Shown here: positions 39,136 to 48,308 of the stretch, in pieces
Numbering within the stretch: the first letter of the stretch is position 1
Layout: each line of letters begins with the position of its first letter
Assembly: GCA_026984915.1 (NCBI GenBank)
Contig: JALSRG010000079.1
Span: 1-64,000, forward strand
Origin: Marinosulfonomonas sp.
GTDB taxonomy: Bacteria > Pseudomonadota > Alphaproteobacteria > Rhodobacterales > Rhodobacteraceae
Direction of reading: 5' to 3'
Length of the DNA stretch: 64,000 bases
The notes under the pieces: generated by a model
Database searches by the model: none
What the model saw: the letters and a program-made list of their open reading frames with translations, nothing else
What the model was told of the DNA's origin: nothing
Translations under genes and position numbers: made by a program

Positions 39136-39570
39136 TCAGTCTTTCGCCAGAAGCCGGTTCACGGCAGCACGAAAACAGCTTGCATGTGGCCCGAGCGCTG
39201 CCAGCACTTCCTCCTCGTAGGCGCGTGCAATCGGTGCAAGTTCCGCCACCATTGAACGGCCTTTATCGGTCAGCGCAAGTTCAACAAGCCGCCTGTCCTT
39301 GCTGTTCGATTTCTTGGTAATATAACCGGCGTTTTCCAATCGGGTGGCTGCGCGGCTGACCTTGGATTTGTCCATGTCTACCTTCCTGAATATTTCACGA
39401 ACGCTGACGCTTCCCGCCTGAGACAAATGCGCGACAACCCGCCATTCCGGATTCGAAATTCCGAATTTTTCTTTGTACAGGGCCATAAACCCGTCACTGA
39501 CGCGGCTTGATAGTACAGCGAGCTGGTAGGGTAAAAATGCATCCAGATCGAAATCGTTCATCTTGTTCAC
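39136..39570 (-). CDS. MarR-family regulator of the homogentisate cluster
   Basis: A 144-residue MarR-type repressor with a central winged helix-turn-helix (about residues 45-110; [32 protein letters not shown] and the wing [13 protein letters not shown]). A GTG at 39570 with GAGG upstream was preferred; an ATG four codons further in is nearly as good. It is divergent from hmgA, and a perfect 9-bp inverted repeat lies between them. A role as local repressor of tyrosine/homogentisate breakdown is therefore likely. HmgR of Pseudomonas belongs to a different family, so this is a parallel solution. Confidence 0.85.
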
Positions 39571-39644
39571 CAAAACACCTCGTCATTACAGTTCCTTCAG
39601 ATGGCCATGTATTCCGACAGGATTCAAGGGTGGATAAACTTGAC

Positions 39645-39707: not shown

Positions 39708-41069
39708 ATGAGTGCCCAGAATCCTCCGCGCGAGATTATCCGCGCGGAAACTCTTAGTGGAACCACCAAGGATTATATGCCGGGGTTCGGCAATGACTTT
39801 GAAACCGAAGCCTTGCCGGGCGCGCTTCCGCAGGGGCAGAACAGCCCGCAGCGTTGTAATTACGGCCTTTATGCAGAACAGCTTTCCGGAACCGCCTTTA
39901 CCGCACCACGCGGGCAAAATGAACGCACATGGTGCTACCGGATACGTCCGTCAGTAAAACACAGTGGACGCTATGAAAAAATGGACCTGCCCTATTGGAA
40001 GTCAGCGCCAGAGATAAAGCCGGACGTAATATCCTTGGGGCAATACCGCTGGGATCCGGTGCCACACACAGACAAATCCTACACTTTTCTGACCGGAATG
40101 CGTACCATGACCACGGCAGGTGATGTGAACACCCAGGTTGGTCTGGCCAATCATATCTACCTGATTACGGAATCGATGGAGGATGAATACTTCTATTCCG
40201 CCGATAGCGAGCTTCTGGTCATCCCACAAGAAGGGCGGCTACGGTTTTATACCGAGCTTGGCATCATGGATCTTGAACCCAAAGAGATCGCCATCTTACC
40301 GCGCGGCATGGTCTATCGGGTTGAGCTGGTCAACGGCCCCGCGCGCGGGTTTGTCTGCGAAAACTATGGCCAGAAATTCGATCTGCCCGGACGCGGCCCG
40401 ATCGGTGCCAACTGTCTGGCCAACCCCCGTGATTTCAAAACACCCGTAGCTGCCTTTGAAGACCGCGAAGTGCCAAGCCGCATTGTCGTAAAATGGTGCG
40501 GCCGGTTTCATGCCACAGACATCGACCACAGCCCTCTGGATGTCGTCGCCTGGCATGGTAATTATGCCCCGGTAAAATACGACCTGCGCACCTACTCTCC
40601 GGTTGGGGCCATATTGTTTGACCATCCGGATCCGTCGATCTTTACGGTTCTTACGGCGCCTTCGGGCACACCGGGAACGGCCAACATCGACTTTGCCCTT
40701 TTCCGCGAACGCTGGCTTGTGGCCGAGCACACCTTTCGCCCGCCCTGGTACCATAAGAATATCATGAGCGAACTGATGGGAAACATATACGGGATTTACG
40801 ATGCCAAACCGCAGGGATTTGTCCCTGGTGGCCTCAGCCTGCACAATATGATGCTGCCACATGGTCCAGACCGTGATGCATTTGAACACGCGACAACATC
40901 TGATCTGAAGCCCGAAAAGCTGGACAATACAATGTCGTTCATGATCGAGACGCGGTTTCCCCAGCACCTGACTGAATTCGCTGCCAAAGAAGCCCCACTG
41001 CAAGACGATTATATCGAATGCTGGAAAAGCCTGGAAAAGAAATTTGACGGCACGCCGGGGGAAAAATGA
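39708..41069 (+). CDS. hmgA: Homogentisate 1,2-dioxygenase
   Basis: A 453-residue iron-dependent ring-cleaving dioxygenase that turns homogentisate into maleylacetoacetate in tyrosine and phenylalanine breakdown. The N-terminal motif [20 protein letters not shown] is diagnostic, and the iron ligands lie in the cupin part around [14 protein letters not shown] and the late HGPD region ([11 protein letters not shown]). The ATG at 39708 follows GAGAGG by seven bases; a longer frame runs back over the promoter and MarR gene and is not used. The stop overlaps the maiA start (ATGA). Confidence 0.96.
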
Positions 41070-41721: not shown

Positions 41722-42984
41722 ATGCCCCTAATGAAATCCTGGGTGGAAAGCGCCAACACCGAAACCACCCCATTTCCGCTGAACAATCTGCCTTATGGTG
41801 TCTTTTCACGACAGGAAGAGGAAGAAGGCCGTTGCGGCGTGGCAATCGGAGATCAGATCCTGGATCTGACCGGACTGGAGGAAACCCATAACCTGGGTCT
41901 GTTCGATATACCCCTGTTTGATGTACCTTTCTGGAATGACTTCATGGAACTGGGACCGGAAGCCTGGACCATTCTGCGCAACTGGCTGATTGGTGCACTG
42001 GGCAAAAACTCTCCGCTTCAGGTGACGCTGAAACCTTATCTGGTGTCCCAGTCATCCGTTAGAATGCACATGCCGTTTGCGGTTTCCGAGTATACGGATT
42101 TCTATGCTGGCCGCCATCATGCAACCAATGTCGGCACCATGTTCCGCGGGGCCGATAACGCGCTACCGCCAAACTGGTTACACATTCCGATCGGATATAA
42201 TGGCCGCGCGTCATCTGTGGTTATCTCTGGCACGCCGGTACGGCGTCCGTGGGGGCAGCTAAAGCCCCCCAGCGCAGACCGGCCAATCTTTGCCCCATGC
42301 AAGCGTTTTGATCTGGAACTGGAAATCGGCGCGATCATCGGCCAGCCTTCGGATGGCCCGATAACTGTTGCAGAGGCCGATGAAATGATCTTTGGCTACG
42401 TGTTGCTGAATGACTGGTCTGCCCGCGACATCCAAGCCTGGGAGTATCAGCCGCTGGGGCCATTTCAGGCCAAGGCAACAGCCACGACAATTTCACCTTG
42501 GATCGTGACAAGGGCCGCACTGGAGCCATTTCGTGTTTCAACACCCCCGCGCGAGGTTCCGCTTCTGCCATACCTGCAAGAGCCGGGACCGATGCTATAC
42601 GACATAGATCTGGAGATAACACTTCAGCCCAAAGGCAAAGCCGCAACAACCATTTCGCGTACCAATATGAAGGAGCTGTATTACTCTTCCGCCCAACAAC
42701 TGGCGCATCACACGACATCGGGCTGCCCAATGAATGTGGGCGACCTGTTGGGAACAGGTACCATTTCAGGACCCACGAAAGAAAGCCGGGGCAGCCTGCT
42801 GGAACTGAGTTGGGGCGGAAAGGAACCGATTACCCTGGAAAGCGGAGAAAAGCGCGCATTTCTTGAGGACGGTGATACGCTAACGCTGCATGGCAATGCG
42901 CAAGGTCATGGCTATAGAATCGGATTTGGCGAATGCCGCGGGGAAATCCTGCCGGCGCTTGACGATCCATATGAGCGAAGCTGA
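41722..42984 (+). CDS. fahA: Fumarylacetoacetase
   Basis: A 420-residue hydrolase that splits fumarylacetoacetate to fumarate and acetoacetate, closing the homogentisate route. An SH3-like N-terminal domain is followed by the FAH catalytic domain with DFYAGRHHATNVGTMFRG (catalytic His and metal Asp) and NDWSARDIQAWEYQPLGPF, then SPWIVT. Length and motifs match complete bacterial Fah proteins. It follows maiA by 11 bases. An alternative ATG three codons later is possible. Confidence 0.95.
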   Translation: MPLMKSWVESANTETTPFPLNNLPYGVFSRQEEEEGRCGVAIGDQILDLTGLEETHNLGLFDIPLFDVPFWNDFMELGPEAWTILRNWLIGALGKNSPLQVTLKPYLVSQSSVRMHMPFAVSEYTDFYAGRHHATNVGTMFRGADNALPPNWLHIPIGYNGRASSVVISGTPVRRPWGQLKPPSADRPIFAPCKRFDLELEIGAIIGQPSDGPITVAEADEMIFGYVLLNDWSARDIQAWEYQPLGPFQAKATATTISPWIVTRAALEPFRVSTPPREVPLLPYLQEPGPMLYDIDLEITLQPKGKAATTISRTNMKELYYSSAQQLAHHTTSGCPMNVGDLLGTGTISGPTKESRGSLLELSWGGKEPITLESGEKRAFLEDGDTLTLHGNAQGHGYRIGFGECRGEILPALDDPYERS

Positions 42985-43010
42985 TGCACCTGGGCCCAGT
43001 ATATCCGGCG

Positions 43011-43577
43011 CTAAAGCGCGCCCTGCCATTCTCGGACAGTGTCCAGCGGGTACAGAAGCATCAGGATATTCAACGCAAGGCCGTCTCGGATCAGCGCGGT
43101 TGTCAGCACCTCGAACCCGATCACGATCGCCACACTGGCCCAGATCGGCAGGCGCCGCGCCAGCCAGAATCCGATCAGCATGGCAGTAATGTCGGACACC
43201 GAGTTGATGACGGAATCTCCATAATAATCCAGCGAAACCGTAACCGCACGGTAGCGCTCAATAACTGCATCTGTGTTTTCAATGATCTCCCAGGTGGCCT
43301 CGACCAGCGTGGCAATAACCAACCGCCAGCCAACACTTATCCGTCGGGCCACCAACCAGAGTATTGCATAGAAAAGAATACCGTGCAGCAAATGCGACGG
43401 TGTGTACCAATCAATGATATGCTGCGATCCCTCCGAGGTATTCAGTTTGAAATACCAGAGCTTGACCAAGCCACATTTACAGATTGGCACGCGCCCCATC
43501 GCAAGCAAAATAGCTGCGGTGGCAAGAACAATAGCAAAAACCAGCCAATAAGGAAAATTGCGTCTGTTAATACTCAT
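43011..43577 (-). CDS. DUF2585 (UPF0314) integral membrane protein
   Basis: A 188-residue membrane protein with about five hydrophobic segments and the family features ICKCGLVKLWYF, TPSHLLHGILFYA and EATWEIIENTDAVIERYR. DUF2585 proteins are found mostly in alphaproteobacteria and have no known function. The gene is convergent with fahA (26 bases between the ends) and divergent from the MBL-fold gene, from which its start is about 58 bases away. It interrupts the two halves of the aromatic cluster but lies on the other strand. Confidence 0.82.
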   Translation of the reverse strand: MSINRRNFPYWLVFAIVLATAAILLAMGRVPICKCGLVKLWYFKLNTSEGSQHIIDWYTPSHLLHGILFYAILWLVARRISVGWRLVIATLVEATWEIIENTDAVIERYRAVTVSLDYYGDSVINSVSDITAMLIGFWLARRLPIWASVAIVIGFEVLTTALIRDGLALNILMLLYPLDTVREWQGAL

Positions 43578-43635
43578 ACAGGCAAAGAATCACAGCAGAC
43601 TATCGCTGTCCATAATAAACTGTAAGGACAAGAAC

Positions 43636-44586
43636 ATGGCAAAAGCATTCGCTTCCCAAGGCGACATGACCGAAAAGAAGACAAGCTTCACCGAAGTTGG
43701 CGATGGGCTGTGGGCTTTCACCGCCGAGGGCGATCCGAATTCCGGCGTGATTATCGGCGACGAAACCGTCATGGTGATCGAGGCGCAGGCCACTCCGCGT
43801 CTGGCGGAAAAGGTAATTGGTGAAATCCGCAAGGTGACGGACAAGCCGATTTCCCATCTGGTGCTGACGCATTACCACGCTGTTCGGGTGCTGGGCGCTT
43901 CGGCTTATGGTGCGGAACAGATCATCATGTCCGACGCCGCCCGCGCGATGGTCGTTGAACGCGGGCAAGAGGACTGGGACAGCGAATTCCAGCGCTTCCC
44001 TCGTCTGTTCGAGGGTTACGAGAGCATCCCCGGCCTGACTTATCCAACCACCACCTTTTCCGATTCGATGACCGTTTATCTGGGCAATCGCCGCGTTGAC
44101 ATCATGCATCTTGGCCGCGCCCATACGGCTGGCGACGCCGTGGTCTGGGTGCCCGATGCCGAGGTGATGTTCACCGGCGATATCGTCGAATACCATTCCG
44201 CCTGTTATTGCGGCGACGGCCATTTCGCCGATTGGGGCGAGACATTGGAAAATATCGCCAGCTTTGACCCCATAAGCATTGCGCCGGGGCGCGGGGATGC
44301 CCTGATCGGAAGGGCCAAAGTGGCTGCCGCGCTGGAAAGCACGCTGGATTTCGTCGAAAGCACCTACCGCCCCGCCGCACGTATTGCTGCGCGTGGTGGC
44401 AGCCTGAAAGAGGCATGGGATGCCGTGCGGGCCGAATGCGACCCCAAATTCAGCGATTATGCCATTTATGAACATTGCCTTCCGTTCAATGTATCCCGTG
44501 CCTATGACGAGGCCCGTGGCATTGACACACCTCGTATCTGGACAGCCCAGCGTGATATAGAGATGTGGGAAGCGTTGCAGGGATAG
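43636..44586 (+). CDS. Metallo-beta-lactamase-fold protein with altered metal motif
   Basis: A 316-residue MBL-fold hydrolase-like protein. The usual HxHxDH zinc motif reads H79-Y-H81-A-V83-R84, so the two histidines of site 1 remain but the aspartate and histidine are replaced. GRAHTAGD and FTGD further on keep another histidine and the bridging aspartate. It may bind one metal or none. The ATG at 43636 follows AAGGAC; the longer frame overlaps the DUF2585 promoter. It starts a four-gene run with the small membrane protein, the flavoprotein monooxygenase and the DUF2783 gene, so a role in aromatic catabolism is inferred; no reaction can be named. Confidence 0.8.
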   Translation: MAKAFASQGDMTEKKTSFTEVGDGLWAFTAEGDPNSGVIIGDETVMVIEAQATPRLAEKVIGEIRKVTDKPISHLVLTHYHAVRVLGASAYGAEQIIMSDAARAMVVERGQEDWDSEFQRFPRLFEGYESIPGLTYPTTTFSDSMTVYLGNRRVDIMHLGRAHTAGDAVVWVPDAEVMFTGDIVEYHSACYCGDGHFADWGETLENIASFDPISIAPGRGDALIGRAKVAAALESTLDFVESTYRPAARIAARGGSLKEAWDAVRAECDPKFSDYAIYEHCLPFNVSRAYDEARGIDTPRIWTAQRDIEMWEALQG

Positions 44587-44591
44587 ATACA

Positions 44592-44891
44592 ATGCAGAGT
44601 TTTGAAATTGTTTTCTTAGCAGTTCTTCTCGCAATTTTTATCTATTGGGTTATGGCCATGATCCGGCTGCTGACCGCCATGAACAGATACAAGAAGAAGC
44701 GGTTAAAAGAGCTGGGGCCAAATTCCCGCGAAAGCTTTGGCCTGTTTCTGGAAACCGTGAAAGTTGGTTTGACCGATCCGGCATATGAAATGCTGCGGAT
44801 TCGCGCTTTTATTCCAATGGTTCTGATTTTCATAATCAACGGTATTGGCATGTATTATTTATTATTCGATGCCTGTAAAATAGAGGAGTGA
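44592..44891 (+). CDS. Small two-helix membrane protein of the aromatic cluster
   Basis: A 99-residue protein not recognised as a named family. A hydrophobic helix at about residues 4-28 (IVFLAVLLAIFIYWVMAMI) is followed by a basic stretch (NRYKKKRLKEL), an amphipathic middle part, and a second hydrophobic helix at about 75-92. It begins five bases after the MBL gene and ends four bases before the flavoprotein gene, so it is almost certainly part of that operon. The basic segment after helix one suggests a cytoplasmic loop. It could anchor the neighbouring enzymes or help in substrate entry; function unknown. Confidence 0.72.
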   Translation: MQSFEIVFLAVLLAIFIYWVMAMIRLLTAMNRYKKKRLKELGPNSRESFGLFLETVKVGLTDPAYEMLRIRAFIPMVLIFIINGIGMYYLLFDACKIEE

Positions 44892-44895
44892 TCCG

Positions 44896-46506
44896 GTGAC
44901 CAAAATTTTTGAGACTCCACTTTACCCTTACGAGCGAAACGCAGACCAAGATCAAACAAGCCCCGTCCGCCATCCCGTTGTGGTGATAGGCGCCGGCCCG
45001 GTCGGGCTGGCAGCGGCAATTGATCTGGCCCAACAGGACATGCCCGTTGTGGTGCTGGATGACAATGACAGAGTGTCATTCGGTTCCCGCGCGATCTGTT
45101 TTGCAAAACGACCACTGGAAATACTGGACCGCCTGGGATGTGGCGAACCGATGGTGGAAAAGGGCGTGGTCTGGGACACGGGAAAAGTCTTCTTTGGTGA
45201 TCGGCAAATTTACGAATTCAATCTTCTGCCGGAAGAAGGCCACAAGAATCCGGCCTTTATCAACCTCCAGCAGTACCACCTGGAAGCCTTTCTGGTGGAC
45301 CGTATCCGCCAGTTGCAAGCCGAGGGGAAACCACTGGATCTGCGCGGCAAGAACAAGGTTGATGCCATTGGCCAGCACGATGACCACGTGACGCTGGAAA
45401 TTGACACGCCCGACGGGCCATATAACCTTGAAGCAGAATGGCTGATTGCCTGCGATGGTGCAAATTCGCCAACGCGCCGGATGCTTGGGCTGGATTTTGT
45501 CGGCCAGGTGTTCGAAGACAACTTTCTGATTGCCGACACCGTTATGGCGGCCGATTTTCCAACCGAACGCTGGTTCTGGTTTGATCCGCCTTTCAATCGC
45601 GGTCAGTCGGCTCTGTTGCACAAACAGCCTGACAACGTCTGGCGTATCGATTTTCAGATCGGCTGGGACATTGATCGCGACAAGGAACTGGAAGAGGACA
45701 ATATCAAGCGGCGGCTGCATGCTATGCTTGGGGAGGATGCAAGATTTGAGTTGGAATGGACATCCATCTACACTTTTCAGTGCCGCCGAATGGAATCCTT
45801 TCGCCATGGTCGCGTGCTGTTTGCGGGCGATGCGGCACATCAGGTTTCCCCTTTTGGTGCACGTGGCGCCAATAGTGGGTTTCAGGATACAGATAATCTT
45901 GTGTGGAAACTGAAGCTGGTGCTGGAAGGCAAGGCACCGGACTCATTGCTGGATACCTATAATAGTGAACGCGTTGCCGGCGCCGAGGAAAACATCCTGA
46001 ACTCAACACGCTCTACCGAGTTCATCACCCCGAAATCCGAGACGAGCCGTATTTTCCGCGATGCGGTGCTGGATTTGGCCGAGCATTATGATTTTGCACG
46101 CCCCATGGTAAATTCCGGCAGGCTATCCGTACCATGCATATATTCGGATTCTACTCTGAACGGCCCTGACACAAGCGAATTGCCGGCAGATCTGTGCCCC
46201 GGCACGCCGGCTGTCGACGCGCCGATACGCGACGGTTGGTTGCTTGATCGCTTGGGCGACCGCTTCCAACTGTTGGCCATTGGTGTAAATGCCGACACGG
46301 ATTTGGAAAGCAACGGTATTTCGATAGAGACACTTCTGCTTTCGCCGGATGAAAGCCCTGAATTCTCGTCCCGTTATCTTGGAAAGGCTGATCAGGCCGT
46401 TTATCTGATACGACCCGATCAGCATATTTCTGCGCGCTGGACCGACTATGACAGGGCGGCTGTACTGAATGCCCTGCAAACCGCAACTGGCAATAAGGAG
46501 GTGTAG
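44896..46506 (+). CDS. FAD-dependent aromatic hydroxylase, MhpA/MhaA-like
   Basis: A 536-residue class A flavoprotein monooxygenase. The dinucleotide-binding motif GAGPVG is at residues 32-37, the DG-type segment is in LIACDGANSPTRR, and the second FAD motif GDAAHQVSPFGARG starts at 311. A C-terminal thioredoxin-like region follows, as in MhpA. The start is GTG four bases after the small membrane protein gene. In Pseudomonas putida the flavoprotein MhaA with a very small partner MhaB hydroxylates 3-hydroxyphenylacetate to homogentisate. The presence of a 64-residue partner next door and of hmgA nearby makes the same reaction the leading hypothesis here. A related phenol substrate remains possible. 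Confidence 0.8.
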   Translation: MTKIFETPLYPYERNADQDQTSPVRHPVVVIGAGPVGLAAAIDLAQQDMPVVVLDDNDRVSFGSRAICFAKRPLEILDRLGCGEPMVEKGVVWDTGKVFFGDRQIYEFNLLPEEGHKNPAFINLQQYHLEAFLVDRIRQLQAEGKPLDLRGKNKVDAIGQHDDHVTLEIDTPDGPYNLEAEWLIACDGANSPTRRMLGLDFVGQVFEDNFLIADTVMAADFPTERWFWFDPPFNRGQSALLHKQPDNVWRIDFQIGWDIDRDKELEEDNIKRRLHAMLGEDARFELEWTSIYTFQCRRMESFRHGRVLFAGDAAHQVSPFGARGANSGFQDTDNLVWKLKLVLEGKAPDSLLDTYNSERVAGAEENILNSTRSTEFITPKSETSRIFRDAVLDLAEHYDFARPMVNSGRLSVPCIYSDSTLNGPDTSELPADLCPGTPAVDAPIRDGWLLDRLGDRFQLLAIGVNADTDLESNGISIETLLLSPDESPEFSSRYLGKADQAVYLIRPDQHISARWTDYDRAAVLNALQTATGNKEV

Positions 46507-46507
46507 A

Positions 46508-46702
46508 ATGTCAAAGCTTGTCACAAAGCCAAACATCCCCGAAGCGGATGATTTTTATGCCGAATTGCTTGCCATGCATAATGGTCACAGCAAAGAAGAG
46601 TCTGATGCGATCAATGCGAGGCTCATTCTGCTTTTGTCAAATCATATCGGAGACAGAGAGATTCTGACAGAGGCAATGCAGGCCGCGAAAGGTAATAGCT
46701 GA
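46508..46702 (+). CDS. DUF2783 small protein, possible MhaB-like coupling protein
   Basis: A 64-residue soluble protein with the DUF2783 pattern: PDADDFYAELL-like (here PEADDFYAELLAMHNG), EESDAINARLILLLSNHIGDREILTEAM. It begins right after the flavoprotein stop (the ATG is one base beyond TAG), with AAGGAGG upstream inside the previous gene, so the two are made together. Its size and position match the small coupling subunit of the two-component 3-hydroxyphenylacetate hydroxylase; that identity is inferred from context, not from a clear motif. Confidence 0.75.
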   Translation: MSKLVTKPNIPEADDFYAELLAMHNGHSKEESDAINARLILLLSNHIGDREILTEAMQAAKGNS

Positions 46703-46742
46703 GAGCTTGCCCGCCAGCATTTGCCGTGCAAACCTGCGCTCT

Positions 46743-48308
46743 ATGTTGACACTGAAAGAACTCGCCCCCTTTAGCCCGGCAGAAGAGAAACTGCTGGCAG
46801 AATGTATCCGCCCAAACCGGCTTGTCGTAGGTGACGGGGAACTTCCGGCCGAAGAAACGCCTGATTGTTGCATTCGGGCCCAGTTGATCCGGTTGTTGCT
46901 GCTGGGGAATGAGGGGCAGCTCGATGCAAAGGGATTGCGTTTGCGCGGGGCCTGGATCAAGGGTGTTCTTGACTTGCAGGGTTGCGATTGCAACCGTGAT
47001 ATAACCCTATCGCACTGCCATGTTGTAGAGCCGCTGGTGCTGGTCAATACCCGCTTGCGCGGCCTGCATATATCAGGGTCCTTGATTCACGGCTTATCGG
47101 CTGACAACGCTGTTTTTTCCGGCTCCCTCTATGTGCGAAGCGGCACCTTGATTCAGGGAGAGGCAAGCCTTGCCGGTGCACGCATTTCCGGTGACGTTCA
47201 AATTTGTGATGTCGAAATTCATCCGCCCGGAAATGACGCCGTATTTGCGCCATCACTGCGCGTTGAGGGCTCAGTTTTCCTCGGCAACTATCCTTATGGA
47301 AACGGTGTCAGCACCCTGACAGCAAATGGAGCCCTGTTTTTTTCGTCTGCCCGTGTCGAACACGACTTTTTCGTCACTAACACGGCAGTATCACTACCTG
47401 ACAAAGCTATCGGCGATGCCGTTTTTGACGCAACAGAAGAACATGGAAGTGATATTGCCCTGTCGCTTGCACGCGCAAGAATTGGTGGAATCCTGTTCTT
47501 TCAGGATAACCAGATTTCTCGCGGAATTGTCAATCTGGCAGGCGCCCAGGTTGCCAGGCTCAAGGACGAACCGGTTGGACCTGGTGCAAGCTACCCGATC
47601 CGTCTGGACGGGTTTCGGTATCGTGATTTTTCTCGCCATGCAGTCACAAAGCTGAAGGCCCGGCTGGCGTGGCTTGAAAGACGCCCGGAGAATACCGCCT
47701 TTTCCGCGCAACCCTATGAACAATTGGCCAATGTGTTATCGCATATGGGGCTGCGGAATGATGCGCGAACAGTCCTGATGTTCAAGGAGCGGCTTCTGCG
47801 ACGGGCAAACCGCCTGCAGGCCCGACGGCGTGGGCATTTCCTGAAATGGGCACTTTCCGCAATAACAGACCCTGTTTTGCGCTTTACAATCGGATATGGT
47901 TACAGACCCGTGCGTGCAGTGGTTCTGGCCGTGTTGCTGATTGCAGGGTTGGGTTGGTTCTTTGATCAGGCGTGGCGTGCAGGGGATATGGCGCCAAATG
48001 CGGCACCCATTCTGGTTTCTCAGCCGTGGGTGAGCGCAACCATTACACACCCTGACAATCCGGCTGGTTTCTGGTCGCAACCGGGACAGGCCGGACAAGA
48101 CTGGGAAACCTTCAACGGCTGGGCCTACGCTGCCGATCTTGTCGTTCCCATTGTAAGCCTGGGACAAGAGAGCGCCTGGGCACCCTCTACTTCACGCAAC
48201 GCCTGGGGCAAAAGCGGATGGTGGATGCGCTGGATCGCCAAAACCCTTGGGTGGATTGTAACGGCCTTGGGCGCCGCCGCTATCACTGGTGTAATCCGCA
48301 ACGATTAG
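46743..48308 (+). CDS. Membrane-anchored protein with beta-helix-like repeats, function unknown
   Basis: A 521-residue protein with two parts. Residues about 60-320 consist of repeating strands such as LRLRGAWIKGVLDLQGCDC, LRGLHISGSLIHGLSADNAVFSGSLYV and ANGALFFSSARVEHDFFVTN, which suggests a right-handed beta-helix of the pentapeptide or bactofilin kind. A helical link (QPYEQLANVLSHMGLRNDA, FKERLLRRANRLQARRRG) leads to a C-terminal part with hydrophobic segments near 400-420 and 495-517. The start was placed at the ATG (46743) and not at the upstream TTG; no strong ribosome site is seen. It follows the DUF2783 gene by 40 bases. I do not recognise a function. Confidence 0.7.
   Translation: MLTLKELAPFSPAEEKLLAECIRPNRLVVGDGELPAEETPDCCIRAQLIRLLLLGNEGQLDAKGLRLRGAWIKGVLDLQGCDCNRDITLSHCHVVEPLVLVNTRLRGLHISGSLIHGLSADNAVFSGSLYVRSGTLIQGEASLAGARISGDVQICDVEIHPPGNDAVFAPSLRVEGSVFLGNYPYGNGVSTLTANGALFFSSARVEHDFFVTNTAVSLPDKAIGDAVFDATEEHGSDIALSLARARIGGILFFQDNQISRGIVNLAGAQVARLKDEPVGPGASYPIRLDGFRYRDFSRHAVTKLKARLAWLERRPENTAFSAQPYEQLANVLSHMGLRNDARTVLMFKERLLRRANRLQARRRGHFLKWALSAITDPVLRFTIGYGYRPVRAVVLAVLLIAGLGWFFDQAWRAGDMAPNAAPILVSQPWVSATITHPDNPAGFWSQPGQAGQDWETFNGWAYAADLVVPIVSLGQESAWAPSTSRNAWGKSGWWMRWIAKTLGWIVTALGAAAITGVIRND

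Follow-up and report, generated by a model that had tools for sequence, protein, structure and literature searches.

Described systems and the locus

The gene block examined here occupies positions 43636-46702 of a 64,000-nucleotide stretch of Marinosulfonomonas sp. DNA (contig JALSRG010000079.1, positions 1 to 64,000, called the window below), and its closest described counterparts are flavoprotein systems that lead to homogentisate. Here and below, the cited papers are represented by extracts. MhaAB of Pseudomonas putida U, with a homologue in Paraburkholderia xenovorans LB400 (BxeA2727/2726, 47% and 35% identical to MhaA and MhaB), resembles the window block in combining a flavoprotein with a 60-residue coupling protein beside homogentisate genes, and differs from it in that the extracts of its description name no metallo-beta-lactamase-fold (MBL) component (PMC3053370). 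HpaH/HpaC of Delftia acidovorans (EC 1.14.13.18) carries out the FAD- and NAD(P)H-dependent conversion of 4-hydroxyphenylacetate to homogentisate, with hpaH yielding a metabolite reported as unidentified and called Z, and hpaC converting Z to homogentisate (PMC9338888). Genes named hpaH/C are also mentioned in Ruegeria and Halomonas (PMC9338888, PMC8058095), including unpublished ones in Halomonas titanicae, an organism that makes homogentisate from 4-hydroxyphenylacetate and cannot metabolise 2- or 3-hydroxyphenylacetate (PMC8058095).

The Delftia system is described as having two parts, and the rebuilt constructs have not given homogentisate: none was detected with patent constructs of hpaH/hpaC, and, by an unpublished remark of the authors, none was formed in Escherichia coli by the Ruegeria pomeroyi and Halomonas olivaria versions of hpaH plus hpaC; the review suggests that "another DNA sequence" may be needed for activity (PMC9338888). 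If the window block is the same system, as we infer, it may contain such additional sequence. Its four genes are as follows.

43636-44586, forward strand: MBL-fold protein, 316 aa; PF00753 (Lactamase_B), 39.2 bits
44592-44891, forward strand: 99-aa orphan protein with two hydrophobic segments; no family match
44896-46506, forward strand: group A flavoprotein hydroxylase, 536 aa, GTG start; PF01494 (FAD_binding_3), 198.7 bits, and NF006002/PRK08132, 798 bits
46508-46702, forward strand: DUF2783 protein, 64 aa, modelled as three helices; PF10932, 95.1 bits

An earlier note on this DNA, made from the sequence alone, had described four same-strand genes with gaps of 5, 4 and 1 bases and had named an MBL-fold protein, a hydroxylase and a DUF2783 protein; the open reading frame coordinates and the Lactamase_B, FAD_binding_3 and DUF2783 profile matches agree with it. 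The score cut-offs are 22 bits for PF01494, 416 for NF006002 and 25 for PF10932, and the DUF2783 match covers profile positions 1-58 of 59. As in MhaAB, the gene for the small partner (64 residues) directly follows the flavoprotein gene, after a 1-base gap. GxGxxG, DG and GD are motifs of group A flavoprotein monooxygenases; they are visible by eye in the window hydroxylase, and loose patterns for them match 150, 152 and 142 of 155 relatives.

A conserved three-gene module

The MBL gene, the hydroxylase gene (PRK08132 family) and the DUF2783 gene form a conserved module in which the MBL gene is a near-obligate partner. Co-occurrence was counted in an order sample of 196 genomes and a phylum sample of 398, with 21 genomes of the window's family common to both; these are counts from samples, and related genomes within them are not independent. 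The order sample has DUF2783 in 130 of 196 genomes and the MBL family in 126, all of which also have DUF2783 (128 MBL matches, two of them, in G052 and G165 at E about 1e-21, dropped as paralogues). The four genomes with DUF2783 and no MBL are G030, G040, G187 and G134. By appearance the first two hold DUF2783 remnants, with an internal stop in G030, 22 profile positions in G040 and no hydroxylase in either locus (L057, L071), while in G187 the block starts at a contig end (L066). With an MBL threshold of E up to 1e-40, the phylum sample has DUF2783 in 59 of 398 genomes and MBL in 60, the latter being G329 and all 59 DUF2783 genomes, of which 38 belong to families other than the window's. Conservation of the set is far above chance. 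Several genomes of the window's family keep the MBL gene with hmgA-fahA while the hydroxylase-DUF2783 pair has moved (L047, L133, L277, L278), and since the MBL gene lies apart from the pair in several genomes, linkage is not the whole cause of the co-occurrence.

A second MBL protein is found near the hydroxylase in 5 loci, including L107:12437-13318, whose copy has the motif HLHYDH. One locus in Leisingera gene order (L166) comes from a record titled Nocardioides marinus and is probably contamination. Some genomes are present twice, under a G handle and as a named record (G011/L140, G006/L204 and G160/L209).

The 99-aa gene is not part of this module. Its product has 19-residue hydropathy windows above 1.6 within residues 1-31 and 64-95, two segments that probably span the membrane, and it was matched at E up to 0.001 in only 1 of the 196 order genomes, its own, so that it was rejected as a module member. 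The nearest syntenic locus (L137) has no such gene, and there the MBL and hydroxylase genes are 27 bases apart. The gene has a G+C content of 42% against 54.6% in the window, and RNA folding at its start gave a z of -0.6. Inserts of other kinds also occupy the spacer in relatives: among 133 loci with a same-strand MBL gene, the distance between MBL and hydroxylase genes is at most 300 bases in 100, 300-1200 in 24 and more in 2, the MBL gene lying downstream of the hydroxylase in the other 7. The earlier note had asked whether both extra genes travel with DUF2783; the MBL gene does (59/59 phylum and 126/130 order DUF2783 genomes) and the membrane gene does not (1/196). Because the 99-aa gene is not conserved, the module has three genes and not four, and the membrane protein is a passenger, an orphan insert without a conserved role. 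Separately, a DinB-family gene lies between MBL and hydroxylase genes in 14 of 155 hydroxylase loci (e.g., L217:8948-9463 and L108:7530-8108).

The DUF2783 protein as partner of the hydroxylase

Because DUF2783 or MBL served to select loci L032-L071 and L096-L135, the link between hydroxylase and DUF2783 is tested fairly by the 80 loci (L136-L215, among 155 hydroxylase loci in all) fetched through the hydroxylase alone. In all 80 of them DUF2783 follows the hydroxylase downstream at a distance of at most 300 bases. Of the full 155 loci, 153 have it downstream or fused, one fusion counted, and the remaining two are L125 (fused, with a weak domain) and L129 (a divergent partner). The fusion in L110 is a single 720-aa chain of hydroxylase, proline-rich linker and DUF2783 domain (85.3 bits), and the 610-aa chain of L125 holds a weaker domain (26.8 bits, cut-off 25). 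A DUF2783 match within a 604-aa open frame at G184:C101:12994-13167 is possibly a third natural fusion.

The structure model of the DUF2783 protein has three helices (pLDDT 89.5) and gave no match in the PDB at E up to 0.001. Since an FAD domain is already part of the hydroxylase, there is no need for DUF2783 to supply flavin reductase activity, and for a three-helix protein of 64 residues a coupling function such as that reported for MhaB suggests itself most naturally. The earlier note had proposed that the protein is the coupling subunit, and position in 80 of 80 loci, two fusions and a profile-profile match to partners of about 60 aa bear this out: the partnership is strongly supported, and DUF2783 very likely acts as a coupling subunit.

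A literature search on DUF2783 returned one paper. In Bradyrhizobium diazoefficiens the genes bll2330-bll2329-bsl2328, encoding a VOC protein, a flavoprotein and a DUF2783 protein, are decreased in an nnrR mutant, which places an oxygen-using hydroxylase under a denitrification regulator (PMC6710368, from extracts).

Relationship to MhaAB-type hydroxylases

A search of plasmids for a P. putida-type MhaA matched 32 records, none from Pseudomonas. A second hydroxylase clade, from Acinetobacter plasmids and other sources, supplied small partner proteins as surrogates for MhaB; in L228, for example, the flavoprotein has 569 aa and its partner 61 aa, similar to the quoted lengths of MhaA (566 aa) and MhaB (60 aa). 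An hhalign comparison of 8 surrogate partners (59-75 aa) with 12 DUF2783 proteins, both sets hand-picked, gave 97.5% probability and E 6e-12 over 58 columns. A Pfam scan of four surrogate partners found no DUF2783 match in L226, L227 and L228 and one at E 0.024 in the fourth, and a partner of this type in G276 matches DUF2783 at 1.3e-4, under the cut-off. These comparisons suggest that DUF2783 and the MhaB-sized partners belong to one superfamily.

The flavoproteins themselves separate. The hydroxylase tree comprises 85 hand-picked rows, with six further rows omitted by name, and the window protein falls outside the clade with MhaB-sized partners, to which it is 33-37% identical; this places it apart from the MhaAB type as represented by the surrogates. 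In the tree, 46 of the 48 hydroxylases with an MBL gene in the locus fall in one 68-row clade (support 88, under the 95 mark), which also holds 11 rows whose locus lacks MBL and 11 with a locus too short to judge. Eight of the 11 MBL-less rows come from genomes with MBL elsewhere (G020, G036, G107, G133, G151, G416, G501, G510). The clade with MhaB-sized partners has 9 rows, and no MBL gene occurs in the five of its loci that are long enough to judge. The relation to MhaB suggested in the earlier note, examined through surrogates, is thus probable for the small proteins, which are similar to partners of about 60 aa, and less so for the hydroxylases, which lie in separate clades.

This result bears on the possibility that the pair is an MhaAB-type 3-hydroxyphenylacetate 6-hydroxylase, with the MBL protein an accessory that, for instance, removes a side product. 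The shared architecture, a flavoprotein plus a coupling protein of about 60 residues beside hmg genes as in LB400 (PMC3053370), and the homology of DUF2783 to the partners of about 60 aa are what it would predict. The separate clade is not, and four genomes (G276, G635, G679, G757) carry one hydroxylase of each kind, suggesting different jobs (3 candidates per genome were scored in this search). Adding the two-component description of MhaAB, whose extracts include no MBL protein (PMC3053370), and the failure of H. titanicae to use 3-hydroxyphenylacetate (PMC8058095), we regard an MhaAB-type function as rather unlikely.

Predicted active site of the MBL protein

The nearest solved structure to the MBL protein is PDB 8d2z (52% identity, Z 40.2), a Burkholderia cenocepacia MBL superfamily protein released in 2023 whose entry title names no function; it shares the HYHAVR and PGRG motifs with the window protein. 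The next nearest fold is that of chlorothalonil hydrolytic dehalogenase (6uxu, Z 27.8), which is 24% identical and, by eye, retains an Asp-His pair at the positions taken by Val-Arg in the window family. All 50 structure matches among those listed have Z of at least 19.8, and most are MBL-fold by title (model pLDDT 84.2). Literature searches for 8D2Z and for homogentisate together with metallo-beta-lactamase returned nothing related to this protein by title.

An HxHxDH motif plus a second-site histidine marks the canonical binuclear MBL metallo-hydrolases. In an alignment of 133 rows (130 distinct, with three identical pairs; six reads shorter than 300 aa left out), that combination is absent from all 133, while HYHAVR, H163, D182 and G-R219-G are invariant in all 133. 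Among representatives below 80% identity, whose lowest pairwise identity is 40%, 29 of 29 also have HxHAVR. One metal site is kept (H79, H81, H163, D182), and the second-site positions are V83, R84 and R219. In the standard MBL numbering, the three site 1 histidines are kept together with an aspartate at the position of a third site-2 ligand, D120 and H263 correspond to V83 and R219, and R84 is position 121. Arginine at position 121 also occurs in some true B1 enzymes. We predict that the site holds one metal and that its second half is basic.

Loss of half of the metal site could mean that the MBL protein is a non-catalytic fold, a scaffold or a regulator, and the fact that DUF2783-hydroxylase pairs can lie elsewhere in the genome would fit this. 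Nevertheless, none of the 133 rows, which go down to 40% pairwise identity, departs from the kept site's three histidines and aspartate or from many other polar residues, which makes a non-catalytic role very improbable.

The same alignment speaks to a broader role, in which the MBL protein would serve DUF2783 hydroxylases of any substrate as a repair enzyme or hydrolase for a common by-product (a quinone, lactone or thiol adduct), alongside the nearby glyoxalase-like VOC protein and the glutathione-dependent MaiA. It would account for MBL in genomes whose only DUF2783 hit adjoins a hydroxylase of another clade (G513, G539, G214), for MBL in genomes without HmgA and for the VOC gene in 55 of 155 loci. 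The second metal site of the usual MBL hydrolases is absent, though, from every aligned copy, and where MBL copies are unlinked they may be part of other pathways (L270, L272); a general by-product enzyme is conceivable but doubtful.

Pathway context and candidate substrate

Upstream of the block the window holds the genes for homogentisate breakdown, each scoring above the NCBIfam equivalog cut-off (the start of hmgA was placed at the first ATG preceding the profile match).

39708-41069, forward strand: hmgA, homogentisate 1,2-dioxygenase; TIGR01015, 652.7 bits
41066-41710, forward strand: maiA, maleylacetoacetate isomerase; TIGR01262, 276.3 bits
41722-42984, forward strand: fahA, fumarylacetoacetase; TIGR01266, 506.0 bits

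At least one of hmgA, fahA and maiA is present in 72 of the 80 hydroxylase-selected loci. From this context the module likely feeds homogentisate into hmgA-maiA-fahA in this genome, as the earlier note had supposed. In Dinoroseobacter shibae the block lies between hmgA-fahA and phenylacetyl-CoA genes. HPD is above the cut-off in 111 of 126 MBL genomes and not in 15, so that the module would usually add to the tyrosine route and not replace it.

The substrate named in the earlier note, 3-hydroxyphenylacetate, is disfavoured by the position of the window hydroxylase outside the clade with MhaB-sized partners and by Halomonas physiology, which points to 4-hydroxyphenylacetate. Each of the 12 loci titled Ruegeria combines the hydroxylase-DUF2783 pair with one or more of hmgA, fahA and maiA, and in 9 of them the locus also contains MBL. 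The order MBL-hydroxylase-DUF2783-hmgA-...-maiA is seen in Halomonas sp. PA16-9 and in a relative of it, G245, and G245 has one hydroxylase of the superfamily at E 1e-60 (3 of 21 candidates scored). Given Halomonas physiology and these Ruegeria and Halomonas loci, 4-hydroxyphenylacetate is the first-choice substrate, with about an even chance of being the right one. Literature searches for 3-hydroxyphenylacetate with Phaeobacter found nothing, those for Roseobacter with hydroxyphenylacetate found nothing on this block by title, and PMC8449657 makes no mention of mha, lactamase or DUF.

The family seems to have further substrates. We checked for HmgA in 23 hand-picked genomes, most of them chosen because the locus had no hmgA, and since 9 of the 23 have no HmgA-family match, HmgA cannot be where homogentisate goes in every genome. 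The annotated genes near the pair in Bosea L232 include a maleylacetate reductase and an intradiol dioxygenase, a setting that we read as a resorcinol-type pathway. The HmgA-less genomes and this locus together indicate more than one substrate for the family, and the MBL protein would then either do the same chemistry on several products or serve other pathways too.

A 181-aa VOC (glyoxalase-type) protein is encoded in 55 of 155 hydroxylase loci, often directly after DUF2783 (e.g., L160:11811-12365), and no VOC gene was seen in the window block. It was considered as a stand-in for HmgA and rejected: hmgA is also in the locus in 26 of the 55 cases, and by eye the consensus has a glyoxalase-like H/E/H/E pattern.

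Proposed mechanism

We tentatively propose, at somewhat less than an even chance, that the trio is a 4-hydroxyphenylacetate 1-hydroxylase module feeding the homogentisate pathway, with the MBL protein acting on the quinol product. The flavoprotein, with its own FAD domain, would hydroxylate a hydroxyphenylacetate, and DUF2783 would bind it and couple NAD(P)H oxidation to the hydroxylation. Attack on 4-hydroxyphenylacetate at C1 would give a quinol, possibly the published metabolite Z, whose acetate side chain would still have to shift to C2. The MBL protein, with two arginines at or near the second metal place, would most likely act on this unstable quinol, either catalysing the shift or opening a dead-end lactone formed from it, and the resulting homogentisate would pass to hmgA-maiA-fahA. 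Either the MBL protein or DUF2783 could thus be what the reported hpaH/hpaC reconstitutions lacked. The more specific proposal, that the MBL protein is itself a one-metal mutase (or lactone-opening enzyme) turning the quinol from the hydroxylase-DUF2783 pair into homogentisate, and so the missing component of 4-hydroxyphenylacetate 1-hydroxylase, we consider unlikely as it stands.

A number of observations pull the other way. We know of no activity, metal content or product for any module member. That hpaH is a flavoprotein of the window type is an inference drawn from overlap of organisms, and the Halomonas loci examined are not established as H. titanicae. The window's own genome has HPD, by which tyrosine can supply homogentisate without the module. 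Among the 23 genomes checked for HmgA, the match is absent in 9, weak in 2 and full in 12, and 8 of the 9 HmgA-less genomes have both MBL and DUF2783. The genomes of the clade with MhaB-sized partners (G214, G276, G635, G679, G757) have MBL somewhere, although four of these five also carry a hydroxylase of the MBL clade, and the MBL label requires 17 changes on the tree versus 28 expected by shuffling. One DUF2783 genome, G134, is a true exception, with hydroxylase and DUF2783 and no MBL. The MBL gene is away from the pair in G214, G513, G539, G416 and G501, B. cenocepacia L218 has MBL and no such hydroxylase within 8 kb, and Rhodococcus L230 has MBL with a distant flavoprotein and no DUF2783 match.

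Genes around the block

The genes flanking the block and hmgA include the following.

39136-39573, reverse strand: MarR-family regulator, divergent from hmgA; PF01047, 49.3 bits
43011-43577, reverse strand: DUF2585 membrane protein, between fahA and the MBL gene; PF10755, 257.7 bits

A MarR-family gene is found at the same position in many related loci, and DUF2585 also adjoins the block in L044, L065, L137, L181, L203 and L215. In the window, the co-directional run of genes from hmgA is broken by the antisense DUF2585 gene. After DUF2783, at 46743-48308, lies a gene for a 521-aa protein with a weak pentapeptide-repeat match, and L137 and L203 have a relative of it at the same place. Scans of positions 42950-46800 showed no excess of promoters (5 sites against a shuffle mean of 3.1, sd 2.0) or terminators (6 sites against 3.9, sd 2.2).

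Implications

If the mutase proposal is true, the MBL protein would be, as far as we know, the first MBL-fold enzyme completing an NIH-shift reaction, and the arginines replacing its second metal would hold the carboxylate. The failed reconstitution with hpaH plus hpaC is recast as a three-gene problem, which touches a practical aim named in the literature, homogentisate from low-cost 4-hydroxyphenylacetate (PMC9338888, from extracts). The findings give DUF2783 a role, very likely that of a coupling subunit, and the MBL family of 8d2z, which has had no assigned function, is tied to aromatic catabolism by its near-perfect co-occurrence with DUF2783.

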